Below, piece after piece: positions 5,440 to 31,590 of a stretch of 64,000 nucleotides of DNA. This DNA is from Stomorhina lunata (lineage: Eukaryota > Arthropoda > Insecta > Diptera > Rhiniidae): positions 22,266,536-22,330,535 of the forward strand of contig OW121744.1 of NCBI GenBank assembly GCA_933228675.1, read 5' to 3'. Numbering within the stretch: position 1 is the stretch's first letter; each line of letters opens with the position of its first letter. Under the pieces are notes generated by a model that was not told the origin of the DNA, searched no databases, and worked only from the letters and a program-made list of their open reading frames with translations. The translations under genes were made by a program, and so were the position numbers.

Positions 5440-5472
5440 TATTTAAACAGTTGACTGTTTCAGTCAATATCA
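5440..5472 (+). promoter_or_regulatory. Core promoter of the 5495 gene
   Basis: A TATA-like TATTTAAA lies at 5440-5447. Two arthropod initiator-like sites follow: TTCAGTC (A at 5462) and TCACATT (A at 5472). The second puts the TATA box about 32 nt upstream of the start and would give a 5' leader of about 23 nt. This compact layout is usual for small, highly expressed fly secretory genes. Start-site mapping is not possible from sequence alone. Confidence 0.5.
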
Positions 5473-5494
5473 CATTGAAAAACCTTTACCCAAA

Positions 5495-5857
5495 ATGAAG
5501 TTCTTCATCGTTTTGTGTTTAATTTCTCTCTGGGCGTTGGCCTATTCTCAGCCTCTGTTCGATCAGGTTCAACAGCTAAATGTTCCGTTGCCGCCATTGA
5601 ACAGTAAACCAAATAGACCTTCTGTCTCGAAACCTCAAGGTCTCAGACCACCTGTAAAACAACCCACTAGGGAGTTAAACAGTTCACCTGTACAGGAGAA
5701 ACCCCATCCACCCATAGAAGAGCAGCCCCATCCACCAATGGCAACAGAGGTCGAGATTCCGGCTCCAGTAGAGGAAATTCAAAATCAAAAACCAAAACCA
5801 GAACCAGAAGTGGATTATTTCAATGGCAAAGTAGTACCGACACCAAAATATACTTAA
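5495..5857 (+). CDS. Small secreted proline-rich protein (120 aa)
   Basis: Intronless ORF starting at ATG 5495 in a good insect context (CAAA before ATG). Residues 1-18 form a classical signal peptide: Lys2, a hydrophobic core FFIVLCLISLWALA, and a likely cut after AYS before Gln19. The mature part (about 102 residues) is rich in Pro, Glu, Gln and Lys and has no cysteine. It contains a doubled PHPP motif (70-73 and 78-81), an N-glycosylation sequon at Asn62, and an acidic KPKPEPEVDYF segment near 99-109. No enzymatic domain is visible and the chain is probably disordered. TATA/initiator elements sit just upstream and AATAAA 28 nt past the stop, so this is a complete gene unit. Codon use and GC clearly exceed the flanking arrays. 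Accessory-gland, salivary or cuticle-associated secretion are all possible; I do not recognise the family. Confidence 0.85.
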   Translation: MKFFIVLCLISLWALAYSQPLFDQVQQLNVPLPPLNSKPNRPSVSKPQGLRPPVKQPTRELNSSPVQEKPHPPIEEQPHPPMATEVEIPAPVEEIQNQKPKPEPEVDYFNGKVVPTPKYT

Positions 5858-18970: not shown

Positions 18971-19715
18971 ATTTCTATATAACAGGATTTCTTGATGATA
19001 TATTTAAAATATTATTATGTGTCTAACAGTTATAAGGCACCTTTTTAAAGTCATCACTTCAACAAAATATACATACATATTATGTTTGATGCATTTACAA
19101 ATATACAAACCTAAAGCAATACCTTTCCGTTATAAAATTGGCAATTATCTCTCGGCTGGCCTTAAGCTTGTGTCACACTGCGTTACCTTCTACAAAACTA
19201 TTAACTTTTTAATAGAGTAAATTAACCATGCAATTGCTTGTATGCCCACAGCTCCATGTCCAAACAAAATTTCCAGATCCGCAGGGTATTAATGCATACA
19301 CTCAATATAGAGGCACCCACATACATATATATATTTTCAATACATATGTACGAACGCATACATTTGAATTTTATGTTGCAGTTTCCCCAAATAACGAGTA
19401 ACAGGTGAACAAAACAAAAAAAAAAGCAGTTCCTATTATTAAAGTTTCAAACTTTGTAAAAAAAAAAGGAAAAAAGACGAACAAACTTTTGAAAATGTTT
19501 TAAGGAAGTTACTAAATTACGAGAAGTTATATAGTTAAAATTTTAATTATAATTATTGATAGAATGTCGTAGAATAAGTTTTAATTAGAAATGAAAAATA
19601 AAAGTTAGTTATTGCAATATGTGTAAGGCAAATTAGGTCTCATAGAAATAATTAAAAAGTTGAAACAAAAAAATAAGAGGGGAAAGCTTCAGGAGAAAAA
19701 AAAAACGAAAAATAT
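18971..19715. other. Unique island, no gene seen
   Basis: AT-rich sequence with ACATACATATATATATT-type simple repeats near 19315-19345 and A-runs near 19410-19475. The plus-strand ORF at 19017-19220 starts at a non-ATG codon and shows no protein-like features. Confidence 0.4.
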
Positions 19716-20715
19716 TTCTGACAAAAATTTTTCTATATAAAAATTTTTCATAAAAAATTGTTCTATCGAAAAATATTTTTATCAAAAATTTTCTAAAGAA
19801 AAATTTTTTATCAAAAAATTTTTTTAGAAAAATTATTATCAATAATTTTCTATAGGAAATTTTTTTATAAAAAATTTTCTATAGAAAAAATTTTTTAACA
19901 AAAATTTTTTATCAAAAATTTTCTATAGAAAAATTTTTTATCAAAAATTTTCTAAAGAAAAATTTTTTATCAAAAATTTTCTAAAGAAAATTTTTTTTAT
20001 TAATTTTTGTAATTTTCTATAGAAAAATTTTTTATTAAAAATTTTCTATAGATAAATTTTTTAGCAAAAATTAAAGAAAAATTTGTTATCAAAAATTTTC
20101 TATAGAAAAATTTTTTATAGAAAAGTTTTCTATAGAAAAATTTTTTATAGAAAAGTTTTCTATAGAAAAATTTTTTATAGAAAAGTTTTCTATAGAAAAA
20201 TTATTTATAGAAAAGTTTTCTATAGAAAAATTTTTTATAGAAAAGTTTTCTATAGAAAAATTTTTTATAGAAAAATTTGTTATCAAAAATTTTCTATACA
20301 AAAATTTTTTATTAAAAATTTTCTATAGAAAAATTTTTTATCAAAAATTTTCTATAAAAAAATTTTATTTGGAAAATTTTTTTATCAAAACCTTTCTATA
20401 GAAAAATTTCTTAGCAAAAATTTTCTATAGAAATATTTTTTTTACCAAAAATTTTCTACAAAAAAATTTGTTATCAAAAATTTTCTATAGAAAATTTTTT
20501 ACCAAAAATTTTCTACAGAAAAATTTGTTATCAAAAATTTTCTATAGAAAATTTTTTATCAAAAATTTTCTATAGAAAATTTCTTAGCAAAAATTTTCTA
20601 TAGAAACATTTTTTATCAAAAATTTTCTACAGAAAAATTGTTTATCAAAAATTTTCTATAGAAAAATTTTTTATCAAAAATTTTCTAAAAATAAATTTTT
20701 AACAAAAATTTTCAA
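19716..20715. repeat. Degenerate ATCAAAAA minisatellite with a 30-bp in-frame patch
   Basis: Irregular TTTTTTATCAAAAATTTT plus CTATAGAAAAA units. At about 20098-20280 six regular 30-bp units (CTATAGAAAAATTTTTTATA plus GAAAAGTTTT) occur. Because 30 is a multiple of three, both strands stay open there and encode repetitive FYRKI/FYRKV and FSIENFSIKN peptides. I regard these as non-coding. Confidence 0.85.
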
Positions 20716-20987
20716 TAGAAAAATGTGCCAAGCTTTAAAATAAACTTTTGTTTATTTAAATCTTTCTTTGAACCCCCTTTATAGCACTTTTGTCTTAGTC
20801 GCCAACAAAGCAACAACAAAAGTGTGGGAAATAAAGAAATGATAAAACTGAAAAATGTTTGTGTGTTTCTGTTCGGATGATAATCTGCGCTTTATGTTGA
20901 TATTTGTTGGACACAATAATAATAATTCGTATTTATTCAGTCCCTCAAATTATACATAATGTGAGGTTTTCGCTCTGTCTAGAATTA

Positions 20988-21050
20988 GGGATAATCCTCC
21001 TGATGAGATGGACTAACCAACCATCGAAACGCGTCGAGGAAAGGTTTCCC
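20988..21050 (+). ncRNA. Type I hammerhead ribozyme (dimeric form), copy 1a
   Basis: All core elements are present. CTGATGA lies at 21000-21006. Stem II is GATGG 21007-21011 with CCATC 21021-21025 around a 9-nt loop. GAAA is at 21026-21029, and the cleavage triplet GTC at 21033-21035 places the cut before G21036. Stem I is CCTC 20996-20999 with GAGG 21036-21039, continued after an internal loop by GGGA 20988-20991 with TCCC 21047-21050. Stem III consists only of the palindrome ACGCGT (21029-21034) with no loop, so a single molecule cannot close it properly; two copies must pair, as in known dimeric hammerheads. The element probably releases monomer RNA by self-cleavage. Confidence 0.88.
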
Positions 21051-21210
21051 CACCAACATTTTTTGGTTTTATCAAAAAACTATTTATTACAATAATAAAT
21101 AATTGTAATAAATTGGGATTCTTAGTGCAATACACTACAGTAAAACTTTTTAATTAAATGTTTGATGTCCCAAATTTTGATAAACCTTTTTAATAAATAT
21201 ACGGCTGCAC

Positions 21211-21640
21211 ATGTGCCAAGCTTTAAAATAAACTTTTGTTTATTTAAATCTTTCTTTGAACCCCCTTTATAGCACTTTTGTCTTAGTCGCCAACAAAGCA
21301 ACAACAAAAGTGTGGGAAATAAAGAAATGATAAAACTGAAAAATGTTTGTGTGTTTCTGTTCGGATGATAATCTGCGCTTTATGTTGATATTTGTTGGAC
21401 ACAATAATAATAATTCGTATTTATTCAGTCCCTCAAATTATACATAATGTGAGGTTTTCGCTCTGTCTAGAATTAGGGATAATCCTCCTGATGAGATGGA
21501 CTAACCAACCATCGAAACGCGTCGAGGAAAGGTTTCCCCACCAACATTTTTTGGTTTTATCAAAAAACTATTTATTACAATAATAAATAATTGTAATAAA
21601 TTGGGATTCTTAGTGCAATACACTACAGTAAAACTTTTTA
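21211..21640 (+). repeat. Second unit of the 488-bp tandem pair (copy 1)
   Basis: Repeats 20723-21152 at an offset of 488. It lacks the last 58 bp of the unit, where it runs straight into minisatellite sequence at 21641. Confidence 0.9.
21476..21538 (+). ncRNA. Type I hammerhead ribozyme, copy 1b
   Basis: Identical motif 488 nt after copy 1a, with all core bases and stems intact and predicted cleavage after C21523. Cleavage at both sites would release nucleotides 21036-21523, a 488-nt RNA. The ACGCGT palindromes of copies 1a and 1b can pair with each other in one transcript to give the dimeric fold. Confidence 0.88.
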
Positions 21641-23700
21641 GAAAAATTTTTTATCGAAAATTTTCTATAGAAAAATTTTTTATCAATAATTTTCTATACA
21701 AAAATTTTTATCAAGAATTTTCTATACAAAAATTTTTTATAGAAAAATTTTCTATACAAAAATTTTTTATAGAAAAATTTTCTATAGAAAAATTTTTTAT
21801 CAAAAATTGTCAATAGAAAAATTTTTTATCAAAAATTTTCTATAGAAGAAACATTTTTTATCAAAAATTTTCTACTGAAAAACTTTTTATCACAAATAGA
21901 ATAGATTAATTTTTCTATAGAAAAATTTTTTATCAAACATTTTCTATAGACAAATTTTTTTATTAAAAATTTTCTATAGAAAAATTTTTTATCAAAAATT
22001 TTTAATAGACAAATTTTTTATCAAAAATTTTTATAAAAAATTTTTAATAGAAAAATTTTTTATGAGAAATTTTCTATAGAAAAATTTTTAATCAAAAATT
22101 TTTTATAGAAAAATTTTTTATCAAAAATTTTCTATAGAAAAATTTTTTATCAAATATTTTCTATAGAAAAATTTTTGATCAAAAATTTTTTATAGAAAAA
22201 TTTTTGATCAAAAATTTTCTATAAAAAAATTTTTGATCAAAAATTTTCTATAGAAAAATCTTTTATCAAAAATTTTCTATAGAAAAATTTTTTATCAAAA
22301 ATTTTCTATAGAAAAATTTTTTTATCAAAAATTTTTGTATAGAAAAATTTTGATAAAAAAAATTTAGTATAGAAAATTTTTCTATAGAAAGTTTTTGATA
22401 AAAAAATTTTTCTATAGAAAATTTTTGATAAAAAAATTTTTCTATAGAAAATTTTTGATAAAAAATTTTTCTATAGAAAATTTTTGATAAAAAAATTTTT
22501 CTATAAAAAATTTTTGACAAAAAAAATTTTATCAAAAATTTTCTATAGAAAAATTTTTTATCAAAAATTTTCTATAGAAAAATTTTTTATCAAAAATTTT
22601 CTATAGAAAAATTTTTTATCAAAAATTTTCTATAGAAAAATTTTTTATCAAAAATTTTCTATAGAAAAATTTTTTATCAAAAATTTTCTATAGAAAAATT
22701 TTTTTTCTATAGAAAATTTTTGATAAAAAATTTTTCTATAGAGAATTTTTGATAAAAAAGTTATTTATAAAAAATTGTTTATAAAAAATTTTTCTATAGA
22801 AAATTTTTGATAAAAAACATTTTTTATCAAAAATTTTCGACAGAAAAAGTTTGATTAAAAATTTTCTATAAAAAATTTTTATCAAAAATTTTTTAGCGAG
22901 AATTTTCTATAGAAATATTTTTAGCAATAATTTTCTATAGAAAAATTTTTGATCAAAAGTTTTCTATAAAAAATTTGTTATCAATAATTTTCTATAAAAA
23001 ATTTGTTATCAATAATTTTCTATAGAAAAACTTTGTATCAAAAATTTCTATAAAAAAATTATGTATTAAAAATTTTCTATAGAAAAATTTTGTATCAAAA
23101 ATTTTATACTGAAAAATTTTTTATCAAATATTTTCTTTCAAAAATTTTCGAAAAAAATTTTTTTTATCAGAAATTTTCTTAGAAAAATATTTTATCAAAA
23201 ATTTTCTATAAAGAAATTTTTTATCAAAAATTTTCTATAGAAAAATTTTCTATTGAAAAATTTTTTATCAAAAATTTTCTATTGAAAAATTTTTTATCAA
23301 AAATTTTCTATGGAATATTTTCCACAAAAAATTTTCTTAGAAAAATATTTTATCAAAAATTTTCTATAGAGAAATTTTTTATCAAAAATTTTCTATAGAA
23401 AAATTTTTTATCAAAAATTTTCTATAGAAAAATTTTTTATCAAAAATTTTCTATAGAGAAATTCTTTATCAAAAATTTTCTATAGAAAAATTTTTTGTCA
23501 AAAATTTTCTATGGAAAATTTTTGTATCAAAAATTTTCTATAGAAAATTTTTTTTCCAAATATTTTCTTTCAAAAATTTTCCATAGAAAATTTTTTTTAC
23601 CAAAAATTTTCTGTAGAAAAATTTGTTTACCAAAAATTTAATATAGACAAATTTTTTATAGAAAAATTTTTTATCAAAAATCAAAAATTTTTTTATAAAT
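21641..23700. repeat. Degenerate ATCAAAAA minisatellite with strand flips
   Basis: Irregular units of ATCAAAAATTTT plus CTATAGAAAAATTTTT. At 22370-22520 and 22700-22830 the orientation reverses to GATAAAAAATTTTT plus CTATAGAAAATTTTT. The apparent ORFs (21601-21816 plus, 22266-22535 minus) are repeat products. Confidence 0.9.
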
Positions 23701-24580
23701 TTTTCTATGGAAAAAAGATAATATTAAGATACGACGACAACTTGTGAATTATCAGAAAATATGTTTTTTCATCGTCAATGATATCATATATTTCCTAAAA
23801 CAATAAAATCTTTATAAATTATGTAAAAACTAACATCTACATTTAAATTTCTCTATATTTATAATCTAAAAACATTAAGTCCTAACTACTAAATTGTATA
23901 AAAATCTAAAAGCTTAGATCCTAAAAAAATTTATGACAAAAACTCACTCCAAAAAATACATAAGTTTTTAATGGGTCCCTTGGGAGCAGAAAAAAAACGA
24001 CTTAAATTAAATCACGCACAAAACATTTATCAATAAACCATCAGGAATAACATTCACTTCACCCGAGCCACCGCAACAGCAGAACAAACATCAATGACCA
24101 CAATCTATTAAAATGCAGCTCCAAAGGAGAAGGCAAAAGCTAGTGATGACCATCAAAAGCACTTAAACAAATTAACTTGCATTTGGTGCGTTTGTGTTAG
24201 TGTTAATGTGAAAGCTAAAGCTCGCTTATGTGTGTGTATGTATGTGCAAAATCCTTAAAGGATAGTTTACAGCGGTTTCACTAGGTCGCTGCAAAGAATT
24301 AGTGGCGTTTTAAGTTAAGTGGAGTATCAGTGACCCAGCATTATTCAAACATGACAACTCGGAATACGTGCGACCTAAATCTAAGTTTAAGTGTTACTCA
24401 TTTTAATGCGAATGCTAAGGATTTTCCTAAGGACTTTTATGAATTTCAATTTTATAACCAAATGATTTTGCAATTTATATTTTGAGTGTGTAGTTCTGAG
24501 TAGTTAAAATGTTGGCTTTTAGGAATTACAATAATGAAAGGAGGTTAAAAGCTTGAAAATTAAAAAAATTTAAGTAAATC
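23701..24580. other. Unique island inside duplication copy 1
   Basis: About 880 bp of non-array DNA, somewhat richer in GC at 24040-24400, with a CA/GT-like stretch near 24225-24245. No ORF, splice pair or RNA gene could be supported. It may be ancestral intron or intergenic sequence in which the arrays grew. Confidence 0.5.
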
Positions 24581-25651
24581 ACTTTTAGAAAATTTTTATA
24601 CCGAAAAATTTTCTATAGAAAATTTTTTATACCGAAAAATTTTCTATAGAAAATTTTTTATACCGAAAAATTTTCTATAGAAAATTTTTTATACCGAAAA
24701 ATTTTCCATAGAAAATTTTTTATACCGAAAAATTTTCTATAGAAAATTTTTTATACCGAAAAATTTTCTATAGAAATTTTTTTTTTACCGAAAAATTTTC
24801 TATAGAAAATTTTTTATACCGAAAAATTGTCTATAGAAAATTTTTTTTAACCAAAAATTTTCTATAGAAAATTTTTTTTAACCAAAAATTTTCTATAGAA
24901 AATTTTTTATATCGAAAAATTTTCTATAGAAAATTTTTTTTACCGAAAAATTTTCTATAGAAAAATTTTTTCACCGAAAAATTTTCTATAGAAATTTTTT
25001 TACCGAAAAATTTTCTATAGAAATTTTTTTACCGAAAAATTTTCTATAAAAATTTTTTACCGAAAAATTTTCTATAGAAATTTTTTTACTGAAAAATTTT
25101 CTATAGAAAATTTTTTTACCGAAAAATTTTCTATAGAAAAATTTTTTTACCGAAAAATTTTCTATAGAAAAATTTTTTTACCGAAAAATTTTCTATAGAA
25201 AAATTTTTTTACCGAAAAATTTTCTATAGAAAAATTTTTTTACCGAAAAATTTTCTATAGAAAAATTTTTTTACCGAAAAATTTTCTATAGAAAAATTTT
25301 TTTACCGAAAAATTTTCTATAGAAAAATTTTTTTACCGAAAAATTTTCTATAGAAAAATTTTTTTACCGAAAAATTTTCTATAGAAAAATTTTTTTACCG
25401 AAAAATTTTCTATCGAAAAATTTTTTTACCGAAAAATTTTCTATAGAAAATTTTTTTACCGAAAAATTTTCTATAGAAAATTTTTTTTACCGAAAAATTT
25501 TCTATAGAAAATTTTTTTTACCGAAAAATTTTCTATAGAAAATTTTTTTACCGAAAAATTTTCTATAGAAAAATTTTTTTACCGAAAAATTTTCTATAGA
25601 AAAATTTTTTTACCGAAAAATTTTCTATAGAAAAATTTTTTTACCGAAAAA
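24581..25651. repeat. 31-bp ACCG-variant minisatellite (duplication copy 1)
   Basis: Starts with TATACCGAAAAATTTT plus CTATAGAAAATTTTT units, then becomes the TTACCG form also seen at 5.9-7.5 kb. Unit length drifts between 29 and 32 bp through T- and A-run length changes. About 35 units. Confidence 0.95.
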
Positions 25652-26423
25652 TTTTCTATAGAAAAATTTTTTATAGAAAAGTTTTCTATAGAAAAATTTT
25701 TTATAGAAAAATTTGTTATCAAAAATTTTCTATACAAAAATTTTTTATTAAAAATTTTCTATAGAAAAATTTTTTATCAAAAATTTTCTATAAAAAAATT
25801 TTATTTGGAAAATTTTTTTATCAAAACCTTTCTATAGAAAAATTTCTTAGCAAAAATTTTCTATAGAAATATTTTTTTTACCAAAAATTTTCTACAAAAA
25901 AATTTGTTATCAAAAATTTTCTATAGAAAATTTTTTACCAAAAATTTTCTACAGAAAAATTTGTTATCAAAAATTTTCTATAGAAAATTTTTTATCAAAA
26001 ATTTTCTATAGAAAATTTCTTAGCAAAAATTTTCTATAGAAACATTTTTTATCAAAAATTTTCTACAGAAAAATTGTTTATCAAAAATTTTCTATAGAAA
26101 AATTTTTTATCAAAAATTTTCTAAAAATAAATTTTTAACAAAAATTTTCAATAGAAAAATGTGCCAAGCTTTAAAATAAACTTTTGTTTATTTAAATCTT
26201 TCTTTGAACCCCCTTTATAGCACTTTTGTCTTAGTCGCCAACAAAGCAACAACAAAAGTGTGGGAAATAAAGAAATGATAAAACTGAAAAATGTTTGTGT
26301 GTTTCTGTTCGGATGATAATCTGCGCTTTATGTTGATATTTGTTGGACACAATAATAATAATTCGTATTTATTCAGTCCCTCAAATTATACATAATGTGA
26401 GGTTTTCGCTCTGTCTAGAATTA

Positions 26424-26486
26424 GGGATAATCCTCCTGATGAGATGGACTAACCAACCATCGAAACGCGTCGAGGAAAGGTTTCCC
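26424..26486 (+). ncRNA. Type I hammerhead ribozyme, copy 2a
   Basis: Same complete core, stems I and II and palindromic stem III as copy 1a. Predicted cleavage is after C26471. Confidence 0.88.
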
Positions 26487-26911
26487 CACCAACATTTTTT
26501 GGTTTTATCAAAAAACTATTTATTACAATAATAAATAATTGTAATAAATTGGGATTCTTAGTGCAATACACTACAGTAAAACTTTTTAATTAAATGTTTG
26601 ATGTCCCAAATTTTGATAAACCTTTTTAATAAATATACGGCTGCACATGTGCCAAGCTTTAAAATAAACTTTTGTTTATTTAAATCTTTCTTTGAACCCC
26701 CTTTATAGCACTTTTGTCTTAGTCGCCAACAAAGCAACAACAAAAGTGTGGGAAATAAAGAAATGATAAAACTGAAAAATGTTTGTGTGTTTCTGTTCGG
26801 ATGATAATCTGCGCTTTATGTTGATATTTGTTGGACACAATAATAATAATTCGTATTTATTCAGTCCCTCAAATTATACATAATGTGAGGTTTTCGCTCT
26901 GTCTAGAATTA

Positions 26912-26974
26912 GGGATAATCCTCCTGATGAGATGGACTAACCAACCATCGAAACGCGTCGAGGAAAGGTTTCCC
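26912..26974 (+). ncRNA. Type I hammerhead ribozyme, copy 2b
   Basis: Fourth intact copy, with predicted cleavage after C26959. Together with copy 2a it brackets a 488-nt RNA at 26472-26959. Confidence 0.88.
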
Positions 26975-27076
26975 CACCAACATTTTTTGGTTTTATCAAA
27001 AAACTATTTATTACAATAATAAATAATTGTAATAAATTGGGATTCTTAGTGCAATACACTACAGTAAAACTTTTTA

Positions 27077-29136
27077 GAAAAATTTTTTATCGAAAATTTT
27101 CTATAGAAAAATTTTTTATCAATAATTTTCTATACAAAAATTTTTATCAAGAATTTTCTATACAAAAATTTTTTATAGAAAAATTTTCTATACAAAAATT
27201 TTTTATAGAAAAATTTTCTATAGAAAAATTTTTTATCAAAAATTGTCAATAGAAAAATTTTTTATCAAAAATTTTCTATAGAAGAAACATTTTTTATCAA
27301 AAATTTTCTACTGAAAAACTTTTTATCACAAATAGAATAGATTAATTTTTCTATAGAAAAATTTTTTATCAAACATTTTCTATAGACAAATTTTTTTATT
27401 AAAAATTTTCTATAGAAAAATTTTTTATCAAAAATTTTTAATAGACAAATTTTTTATCAAAAATTTTTATAAAAAATTTTTAATAGAAAAATTTTTTATG
27501 AGAAATTTTCTATAGAAAAATTTTTAATCAAAAATTTTTTATAGAAAAATTTTTTATCAAAAATTTTCTATAGAAAAATTTTTTATCAAATATTTTCTAT
27601 AGAAAAATTTTTGATCAAAAATTTTTTATAGAAAAATTTTTGATCAAAAATTTTCTATAAAAAAATTTTTGATCAAAAATTTTCTATAGAAAAATCTTTT
27701 ATCAAAAATTTTCTATAGAAAAATTTTTTATCAAAAATTTTCTATAGAAAAATTTTTTTATCAAAAATTTTTGTATAGAAAAATTTTGATAAAAAAAATT
27801 TAGTATAGAAAATTTTTCTATAGAAAGTTTTTGATAAAAAAATTTTTCTATAGAAAATTTTTGATAAAAAAATTTTTCTATAGAAAATTTTTGATAAAAA
27901 ATTTTTCTATAGAAAATTTTTGATAAAAAAATTTTTCTATAAAAAATTTTTGACAAAAAAAATTTTATCAAAAATTTTCTATAGAAAAATTTTTTATCAA
28001 AAATTTTCTATAGAAAAATTTTTTATCAAAAATTTTCTATAGAAAAATTTTTTATCAAAAATTTTCTATAGAAAAATTTTTTATCAAAAATTTTCTATAG
28101 AAAAATTTTTTATCAAAAATTTTCTATAGAAAAATTTTTTTTCTATAGAAAATTTTTGATAAAAAATTTTTCTATAGAGAATTTTTGATAAAAAAGTTAT
28201 TTATAAAAAATTGTTTATAAAAAATTTTTCTATAGAAAATTTTTGATAAAAAACATTTTTTATCAAAAATTTTCGACAGAAAAAGTTTGATTAAAAATTT
28301 TCTATAAAAAATTTTTATCAAAAATTTTTTAGCGAGAATTTTCTATAGAAATATTTTTAGCAATAATTTTCTATAGAAAAATTTTTGATCAAAAGTTTTC
28401 TATAAAAAATTTGTTATCAATAATTTTCTATAAAAAATTTGTTATCAATAATTTTCTATAGAAAAACTTTGTATCAAAAATTTCTATAAAAAAATTATGT
28501 ATTAAAAATTTTCTATAGAAAAATTTTGTATCAAAAATTTTATACTGAAAAATTTTTTATCAAATATTTTCTTTCAAAAATTTTCGAAAAAAATTTTTTT
28601 TATCAGAAATTTTCTTAGAAAAATATTTTATCAAAAATTTTCTATAAAGAAATTTTTTATCAAAAATTTTCTATAGAAAAATTTTCTATTGAAAAATTTT
28701 TTATCAAAAATTTTCTATTGAAAAATTTTTTATCAAAAATTTTCTATGGAATATTTTCCACAAAAAATTTTCTTAGAAAAATATTTTATCAAAAATTTTC
28801 TATAGAGAAATTTTTTATCAAAAATTTTCTATAGAAAAATTTTTTATCAAAAATTTTCTATAGAAAAATTTTTTATCAAAAATTTTCTATAGAGAAATTC
28901 TTTATCAAAAATTTTCTATAGAAAAATTTTTTGTCAAAAATTTTCTATGGAAAATTTTTGTATCAAAAATTTTCTATAGAAAATTTTTTTTCCAAATATT
29001 TTCTTTCAAAAATTTTCCATAGAAAATTTTTTTTACCAAAAATTTTCTGTAGAAAAATTTGTTTACCAAAAATTTAATATAGACAAATTTTTTATAGAAA
29101 AATTTTTTATCAAAAATCAAAAATTTTTTTATAAAT
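27077..29136. repeat. Degenerate ATCAAAAA minisatellite (duplication copy 2)
   Basis: Duplicate of 21641-23700, including its strand-flipped patches at about 27805-27955 and 28140-28260. Confidence 0.9.
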
Positions 29137-30016
29137 TTTTCTATGGAAAAAAGATAATATTAAGATACGACGACAACTTGTGAATTATCAGAAAATATGT
29201 TTTTTCATCGTCAATGATATCATATATTTCCTAAAACAATAAAATCTTTATAAATTATGTAAAAACTAACATCTACATTTAAATTTCTCTATATTTATAA
29301 TCTAAAAACATTAAGTCCTAACTACTAAATTGTATAAAAATCTAAAAGCTTAGATCCTAAAAAAATTTATGACAAAAACTCACTCCAAAAAATACATAAG
29401 TTTTTAATGGGTCCCTTGGGAGCAGAAAAAAAACGACTTAAATTAAATCACGCACAAAACATTTATCAATAAACCATCAGGAATAACATTCACTTCACCC
29501 GAGCCACCGCAACAGCAGAACAAACATCAATGACCACAATCTATTAAAATGCAGCTCCAAAGGAGAAGGCAAAAGCTAGTGATGACCATCAAAAGCACTT
29601 AAACAAATTAACTTGCATTTGGTGCGTTTGTGTTAGTGTTAATGTGAAAGCTAAAGCTCGCTTATGTGTGTGTATGTATGTGCAAAATCCTTAAAGGATA
29701 GTTTACAGCGGTTTCACTAGGTCGCTGCAAAGAATTAGTGGCGTTTTAAGTTAAGTGGAGTATCAGTGACCCAGCATTATTCAAACATGACAACTCGGAA
29801 TACGTGCGACCTAAATCTAAGTTTAAGTGTTACTCATTTTAATGCGAATGCTAAGGATTTTCCTAAGGACTTTTATGAATTTCAATTTTATAACCAAATG
29901 ATTTTGCAATTTATATTTTGAGTGTGTAGTTCTGAGTAGTTAAAATGTTGGCTTTTAGGAATTACAATAATGAAAGGAGGTTAAAAGCTTGAAAATTAAA
30001 AAAATTTAAGTAAATC
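29137..30016. other. Unique island inside duplication copy 2
   Basis: Duplicate of 23701-24580. No gene is seen in either copy. Confidence 0.5.
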
Positions 30017-31590
30017 ACTTTTAGAAAATTTTTATACCGAAAAATTTTCTATAGAAAATTTTTTATACCGAAAAATTTTCTATAGAAAATTTTTTATACC
30101 GAAAAATTTTCTATAGAAAATTTTTTATACCGAAAAATTTTCCATAGAAAATTTTTTATACCGAAAAATTTTCTATAGAAAATTTTTTATACCGAAAAAT
30201 TTTCTATAGAAATTTTTTTTTTACCGAAAAATTTTCTATAGAAAATTTTTTATACCGAAAAATTGTCTATAGAAAATTTTTTTTAACCAAAAATTTTCTA
30301 TAGAAAATTTTTTTTAACCAAAAATTTTCTATAGAAAATTTTTTATATCGAAAAATTTTCTATAGAAAATTTTTTTTACCGAAAAATTTTCTATAGAAAA
30401 ATTTTTTCACCGAAAAATTTTCTATAGAAATTTTTTTACCGAAAAATTTTCTATAGAAATTTTTTTACCGAAAAATTTTCTATAAAAATTTTTTACCGAA
30501 AAATTTTCTATAGAAATTTTTTTACTGAAAAATTTTCTATAGAAAATTTTTTTACCGAAAAATTTTCTATAGAAAAATTTTTTTACCGAAAAATTTTCTA
30601 TAGAAAAATTTTTTTACCGAAAAATTTTCTATAGAAAAATTTTTTTACCGAAAAATTTTCTATAGAAAAATTTTTTTACCGAAAAATTTTCTATAGAAAA
30701 ATTTTTTTACCGAAAAATTTTCTATAGAAAAATTTTTTTACCGAAAAATTTTCTATAGAAAAATTTTTTTACCGAAAAATTTTCTATAGAAAAATTTTTT
30801 TACCGAAAAATTTTCTATAGAAAAATTTTTTTACCGAAAAATTTTCTATCGAAAAATTTTTTTACCGAAAAATTTTCTATAGAAAATTTTTTTACCGAAA
30901 AATTTTCTATAGAAAATTTTTTTTACCGAAAAATTTTCTATAGAAAATTTTTTTTACCGAAAAATTTTCTATAGAAAATTTTTTTACCGAAAAATTTTCT
31001 ATAGAAAAATTTTTTTACCGAAAAATTTTCTATAGAAAAATTTTTTTACCGAAAAATTTTCTATAGAAAAATTTTTTTACCGAAAAATTTTCTATAGAAA
31101 AATTTTTTTACCGAAAAATTTTTTATAGAAAAATTTTTTTACCGAAAAATTTTCTATAGAAACATTTTTTTACCGAAAAATTTTCTATAGAAAAATTTTT
31201 TTACCGAAAAATTTTCTATAGAAAAATTTTTTTACCGAAAAATTTTCTATAGAAAAATTTTTTTACCGAAAAATTTTCTATAGAAAAATTTTTTTACCGA
31301 AAAATTTTCTATAGAAAAATTTTTTTACCGAAAAATTTTCTATAGAAAAATTTTTTTACCGAAAAATTTTCTATAGAAAAATTTTTTTACCGAAAAATTT
31401 TCTATAGAAAAATTTTTTTACCGAAAAATTTTCTATAGAAAAATTTTTTTACCGAAAAATTTTCTATAGAAAAATTTTTTTACCGAAAAATTTTTTTACC
31501 GAAAAATTTTTTTACCGAAAAATTTTCTATAGAAAAATTTTTTTACCAAAAAATGGTTATAGAAAATTTTTTGTTTTGAAAAAGTTTGTG
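30017..31590. repeat. 31-bp ACCG-variant minisatellite (copy 2 and unduplicated tail)
   Basis: Duplicate of 24581-25651 up to 31087, then about 15 further units to about 31555 that are not part of the duplicated segment. Near 31490-31520 two units are shortened to TTTTTTTACCGAAAAA. Confidence 0.95.

Follow-up and report, generated by a model that had tools for sequence, protein, structure and literature searches.

A non-coding hammerhead retrozyme family of a calyptrate fly with insertion ends resembling those of Penelope-like elements

We identified a family of non-coding tandem repeats in the genome of a calyptrate fly that is almost certainly a retrozyme of the metazoan type, and whose insertions end and pair like those of the Penelope-like elements (PLEs) resident in that genome. 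The anatomy of the unit, its copy number, its two sites of 3' ends, the inverted arrangement of copies, the use of one site at each outer end and the recurrence of this anatomy in the PLEs are read directly from the assembly, and retrozyme and PLEs have a common plan, not a common sequence. A non-coding retrozyme family moved in trans by PLEs is the best explanation of these data and probably the right one.

The window analysed here is a 64-kb stretch (G000:C11:22266536-22330535) of a 728-Mb assembly. A Med31 exon places the host among the calyptrates near Lucilia: among the best 120 of 450 matches, the nearest named proteins are those of Lucilia cuprina (88%), Cochliomyia (84%) and Sarcophaga bullata (79%), whereas Stomoxys, Haematobia, Musca autumnalis and M. 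vetustissima reach 62-65% across that stretch of the query and M. domestica 83% across 58% of it. Unit coordinates (c) are counted from the predicted cleavage site, with c1 at position 21036. The element and its surroundings are as follows.

20723..21640, plus strand: retrozyme copy, 1.88 units of 488 bp (exact repeat; strict mapping runs from c176 to c117, 918 nt)
20716..20724, no strand: candidate target site duplication, left copy, TAGAAAAAT (flank-joining test)
21639..21647, no strand: candidate target site duplication, right copy (flank-joining test)
26159..27076, plus strand: second, identical retrozyme copy, carried by a 5,436-bp tandem duplication

An earlier note on this DNA had described two head-to-tail units 488 bp apart inside a fly minisatellite. 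The repeat is indeed exact (20723-21152 equals 21211-21640, spacing 488), and AT-rich minisatellite lies on both sides of the element (TRF rows 19707-20724 and 21639-29117); the minisatellite string itself returned only an unrelated match in the open-licence literature. The note's picture of the locus was right about the tandem unit but overlooked the identical copy 5,436 bp downstream. That second element at 26159-27076, with predicted hammerhead cuts after 26471 and 26959, is there because positions 20216-25651 are duplicated in tandem at 25652-31087, with 100% identity over 5,457 bp; the duplication is either a recent biological event or an assembly artefact. Of the joins tried, the one linking the flanks at 20724/21648 gives back the minisatellite most completely (score 103 against 96 for the best other offset), and we take the 9-bp duplicate around the window copy as a candidate target site duplication of 5-9 bp, a length that is not fixed because 2 nt at each end also belong to the element. 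If the whole 9-bp duplicate is target sequence, the retrozyme copy is bounded by 20725 and 21638.

Each unit carries a hammerhead motif with the following features.

20988..21050, plus strand: hammerhead 1, of type I, delimited by the distal stem I strands GGGA and TCCC, predicted cut after C21035
21476..21538, plus strand: hammerhead 2, predicted cut after C21523
21029..21034, plus strand: ACGCGU, helix III of one A-U pair closing a CGCG loop (from sequence)

Stem I (TCCTC/GAGGA, with distal GGGA/TCCC), CTGATGA, stem II (GATGG/CCATC), GAAA, CGCG and the GTC site are present in every unit, so that the complete hammerheads described earlier are found as described, and we assign them to type I since helix I is the open helix and core, stem I and stem II are as expected. 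A relaxed type I pattern matches the window four times on the plus strand and never on the minus strand, whereas 100 Mb of random sequence gives 0.010 matches per 64 kb at unit composition and 0.004 at window composition (0.0013 and 0, respectively, with short loops), which bears out the earlier view that the motif is unlikely by chance. The covariance-model check that the earlier note had proposed came out against it: an Rfam scan of the window gave nothing at gathering score, the best hammerhead score being 14.7 bits for Hammerhead_3 (cut-off 48.5, E 8.7). The short helix III may be the reason for this failure. The hammerhead pattern had 0 matches in viral contigs.

ACGCGU is self-complementary, and therefore a six-pair helix III can be shared by two units. 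On its own the hammerhead stretch folds unexceptionally (z -1.1, 25 of 200 shuffles equally good), the predicted monomer minimum being a competing pairing at -17.7 kcal/mol versus -14.9 kcal/mol for the hammerhead. For two units the double hammerhead has a predicted energy of -38.3 kcal/mol, and the predicted two-strand minimum of -41.5 kcal/mol retains stem I and the helix III common to both units but changes stem II. The folding evidence for a dimer is mixed, because the loop II base of the family majority gives a predicted two-strand minimum (-44.6 kcal/mol) other than the double hammerhead. A set of 121 unit copies, whole or partial, varies too little for a covariation test to be of use, with 1 double change against 87 broken cells. 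A palindromic helix III of one pair is common to the fly element and the axolotl HHR_Amex1, which has a palindromic tetraloop and is reported to cleave far better as a dimer (PMC7229834). A repeat-type hammerhead of another dipteran, Aedes aegypti, is alike by its description in PMC3088659, with a palindromic loop and helix III that suggest dimers; the palindromic-loop-III candidate of that species showed no cleavage in the assay described there. The genomic hammerheads of Musca, Rhagoletis and Hermetia are described as type III and kin to those of HDV-like agents (PMC7936874), unlike the type I motif of the fly element. A plant LTR retrozyme was rejected as an assignment, as it would need a type III hammerhead.

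The region between the two cuts has the following features.

21036..21523, plus strand: monomer between the two predicted cleavage sites, c1-c488 (predicted circle MFE -117.4 kcal/mol)
21113..21173, plus strand: stem-loop 3' of the cut, arms TTGGGA (c78-83) and TCCCAA (c133-138) (from sequence and shuffles)
21141..21157, plus strand: 17-nt motif copy 1, TAAAACTTTTTAATTAA; family 3'-end site 1, c113-129, peak c118
21181..21197, plus strand: 17-nt motif copy 2, TAAACCTTTTTAATAAA; family 3'-end site 2, c154-165, peaks c157-158 and c162-163

As a predicted circle, the 488-nt monomer is more stable than any of 100 shuffles (z -6.2), with 64% of its bases paired; forming the hammerhead in this circle costs 2.8 kcal/mol relative to the minimum, and stem I has a pair probability of about 0.06. 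Arms like TTGGGA/TCCCAA arise in 19 of 5000 shuffles in a post hoc test, and the two copies of the 17-nt motif lie 40 nt apart. The unit also contains a near-perfect 32-nt palindrome, ATTTATTACAATAATAAATAATTGTAATAAAT, at 21082-21113 of the window. Its GC content is 31% and its frames are full of stops, with no ORF of at least 90 aa starting inside it, in keeping with the non-coding tandem unit proposed earlier; a 103-aa frame at 21505 extends into the minisatellite. Pfam searches gave no match for a 45-aa piece of the unit and none above the curated cut-off for nine frames of the window. We do not file the unit as a PLE because it lacks an ORF for reverse transcriptase (RT) and GIY-YIG endonuclease.

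Our genome search with the exact pattern (core, stem I and CGCG) returned 1,003 matches, 499 forward and 504 reverse, and 0 for the reversed control; this is a copy count and no measure of conservation, because the pattern itself selects intact cores. The other core-bearing copies that the earlier note had suggested looking for therefore exist, and its term "retrozyme-like" suits a type I hammerhead in a non-coding tandem unit matched this often. Tandem copies, from dimers to multimers, are dispersed across the genome. Among the 40 unit-search candidates scored of 2,627, the longest array has about 13.7 units at 100% identity (C7:45987738-45994416) and adjoins an inverted piece (C7:45987539-45994416 with it), and many single or partial copies are listed as well. 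The window unit equals the majority of the 121 whole or partial unit copies save for 1 base, in loop II, and the window copy is thus young, since only this single base departs from the family majority. Metazoan non-LTR retrozymes as described by Cervera and de la Pena (2020; PMC7229834) are alike in that a type I hammerhead lies in GC-poor, non-coding repeats, arranged in tandem as dimers and higher multimers, with a strongly self-paired monomer. Their units of 150-450 bp, or about 170-400 nt, are slightly shorter than the 488 bp found here, and the self-pairing of more than 70% given for retrozymes in PMC4918200 compares with 64% in the fly.

Strict end mapping covered 45 loci of one contig (C1, from its start to 41.5 Mb in pattern order) and dropped segments below 90% identity or 30 nt. 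Five of 30 pattern-match loci (L015-L018 and L039) were left out as overlapping other loci, and the end counts omit L026, L028 and L057, which hold the same insertion as L022 in a common 2.1-kb repeat, and one of two L055 segments with a shared right flank. Distinct 3' ends fell at c113-129 in 27 of 58 cases and at c154-165 in 24, with 7 elsewhere, a clustering far from uniform (p ~6e-55), and the two maxima, c118 and c158, each lie behind one copy of the 17-nt motif. A lenient, hand-copied list puts 51 of 54 3' ends in the two ranges, two being overrun window copies; lenient mapping overran into AT-rich flanks, giving for example c164 instead of c117 for a window copy, and the counts use strict mapping. 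Distinct 5' ends are scattered, with one recurrent position.

21317 (also 20829), plus strand: c282, recurrent 5' end of copies (11 of 59 distinct 5' ends at c279-286, strict mapping)

Copies at different sites begin near this position (L021, L022, L024, L030, L031, L035, L043, L049, L058, L061 and L062). Position c282 is possibly a transcription start, and no obvious initiator motif is seen there. Flanking duplications of at least 8 bp occur in 14 of 44 cases against 15% in mismatched flanks, a weak enrichment based on leniently mapped ends; target site duplications longer than 4 bp are reported for retrozymes in PMC7229834, compared with 5-9 bp, depending on register, for the candidate duplication of the window copy.

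Copies inverted head to head were found at 14 of the 45 loci and tail-to-tail copies at none. By strict mapping, 10 of 11 scorable head-to-head loci have site 1 at one outer end and site 2 at the other, L035 being the sole exception; L019, L034 and L054, each with an outer end outside both ranges, were excluded, and the right end of L014 was taken from the lenient mapping of L016. Nine further cases with lenient, hand-copied ends agree, which makes 19 of 20; if the two ends chose their sites independently, roughly half would show this pattern. The pattern of one site each is strong within this sample, in which nearly half of the cases rest on leniently mapped, hand-copied ends.

We compared these end patterns with those of the resident PLEs. 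A GIY-YIG family search of the genome gave two matches, one PLE-like and one in a frame that we take to be SLX1, adjoining a Med31 gene. With the PLE-like query, 150 matches were scored of 206 candidates, with open frames of up to 864 aa, and RVT_1 and GIY-YIG were found in both PLE open stretches tested. A hammerhead-like motif stands 3' of the PLE frame and is followed by arms, mostly GACC/GGTC. The comparison covers families A, B and D (our own letters; families E-H contributed a single copy apiece and no pair of ends), with PLE site-2 positions read by eye from printed sequence.

PLE family A, nt past the cut: arms 42 and 89, 3' ends ~78 or 117
PLE family B, nt past the cut: arms 32 and 73, 3' ends ~62 or 96
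PLE family D, nt past the cut: arms 58 and 99, 3' ends ~84 or 122
Retrozyme, nt past the cut: arms 80 and 133, 3' ends 118 or 158

The alternative PLE 3' ends are 34-39 nt apart. Relative to the 3' arm, these positions thus put site 1 10-14 nt ahead and site 2 20-25 nt beyond, alike in families A, B and D and in the retrozyme. All three inverted PLE pairs examined (L065/L064, L085/L086 and L087/L088) show one end of each kind. Two PLE-like traits are therefore present in the retrozyme: two alternative 3' ends behind a hammerhead, and copies inverted head to head of which one side bears the tail (14/45 loci; 19/20 scorable insertions). PLEs elsewhere are alike in the accounts of PMC11167929 and PMC3846280, with a hammerhead ahead of two 3' ends separated by 30-40 nt, AT-rich targets, and copies that are either in tandem or head to head with a one-sided tail; unlike them, the fly unit has no ORF, RT or endonuclease, and its stem I and helix III are longer. 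The Anolis PLE protein is reported to initiate cDNA synthesis internally on the RNA, at two neighbouring positions by which the tail is defined, to extend both strands and to prefer AT-rich DNA (PMC11167929), and in an Adineta vaga PLE the tail is optional at one inverted pseudo-LTR, with duplications of 8-10 bp in the examples given (PMC3846280).

A PLE is very likely the mobiliser of the retrozyme, and we infer cleavage, circles and the identity of the enzyme from the features above. In our model, the hammerhead would process transcripts of 488-nt units, two adjacent units probably acting together as a dimer through the palindromic helix III, and the monomers would be closed into circles. 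A resident PLE RT/GIY-YIG protein would recognise the stem-loop 3' of the cleavage site and, where AT-rich target DNA is cut, begin reverse transcription at one or other of two sites separated by 40 nt. Copying round the circle would yield multimers with ragged 5' ends, and extension of both target strands would leave two cDNAs head to head, one from site 1 and one from site 2. Cleavage and use of a circular template in vivo are, on this model, reasonably likely. More tentatively, the PLE-type integration complex may be an asymmetric pair of one site 1 and one site 2 template, a rule that the retrozyme would obey without coding sequence and off a circular template. If so, PLE mobility would need only a few hundred non-coding nt with a duplicated 17-nt motif and a stem-loop, and the PLE tail would be the trace left by two halves of the complex with different tasks.

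We regard as rather unlikely the alternative in which a long multimeric RNA that stays uncleaved, and no circle, serves as template and the hammerhead is dispensable for movement. Single copies that start at c282, cross the cleavage site and end at c118 or c158 do require uncleaved RNA, and insertion by the Anolis PLE in vitro was unaffected by hammerhead mutants, as reported in PMC11167929. Yet the near-identical array of about 13.7 units with its inverted end piece looks like one event on a circle, and metazoan retrozymes are described as accumulating as circles (PMC7229834).

That the retrozyme is instead a deletion derivative of a PLE from an unsampled family, reduced to pseudo-LTR and tail without an ORF and moving in the same way, we find improbable. 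Such an origin would account for the shared plan of hammerhead, arms and two 3' ends, and only part of the PLE copies was inspected. However, a search for retrozyme homology in 8 EN-flanking loci (L063-L070) gave one AT-rich match only, and one in 14 PLE 3' regions gave only a 34-nt AT-rich match in L075, with no similarity beyond these; moreover, compared with the minimal hammerheads of the PLEs, that of the retrozyme is extended in stem I and longer in the loop of helix III. The 34-nt stretch of L075 resembles the 32-nt palindrome of the unit (85%), possibly through AT-richness.

Mobilisation by other machinery such as a LINE, with the two 3' ends due to the duplicated motif alone and the inverted copies to twin priming, is less probable again. 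The 3'-end sites do lie behind a repeated motif, and the flanking duplications are compatible with target-primed insertion, but the head-to-head copies have 3' ends at both outer sides, one per site in 19 of 20, and all three resident PLE pairs examined likewise combine the two kinds of end. LINE twin priming is expected to give another arrangement. It is hardly credible that the hammerhead is a decayed or chance motif, inactive within an ordinary satellite, as the lack of an Rfam match and the weak monomer fold might suggest, since at most 0.01 matches are expected per window, 1,003 genome matches stand against 0 in the control, and the insertions are dispersed with defined 3' ends and do not form one satellite block. 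The pDo500 repeat of Dolichopoda cave crickets is an insect hammerhead repeat too, but one described as satellite DNA (PMC2837043, PMC2808323).

Returning to mobilisation in trans by PLEs, the authors of PMC7229834 left the mobilising element open and named PLEs as a strong candidate, and the fly family supplies insertion-end evidence, within one genome, for the link they proposed. We found no description there of a defined pair of 3' ends or of head-to-head copies for retrozymes, and no report of retrozyme insertion ends of this kind in our searches of the open-licence literature. For biochemical work on PLEs the retrozyme is a compact template free of coding sequence, and the PLE tail becomes a testable rule of one RT start site per strand.

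Finally, we note some further features of the window and the genome. A 136-aa frame at 5447-5857 of the window has a signal-peptide-like start and a proline-rich body, and a search for relatives of this secreted-protein-like frame gave none at E 0.001. The 2.1-kb genomic repeat at L022, L026, L028 and L057, whose copies are 95-97% identical, carries one retrozyme insertion along, from c282 to about c118. The genome also houses several families of PLEs (L064, L065 and L071-L088) in which the open frames are long, the hammerhead-like motif is followed by a stem-loop GACCT..AAGCTC/AAGCC, and head-to-head pairs occur.
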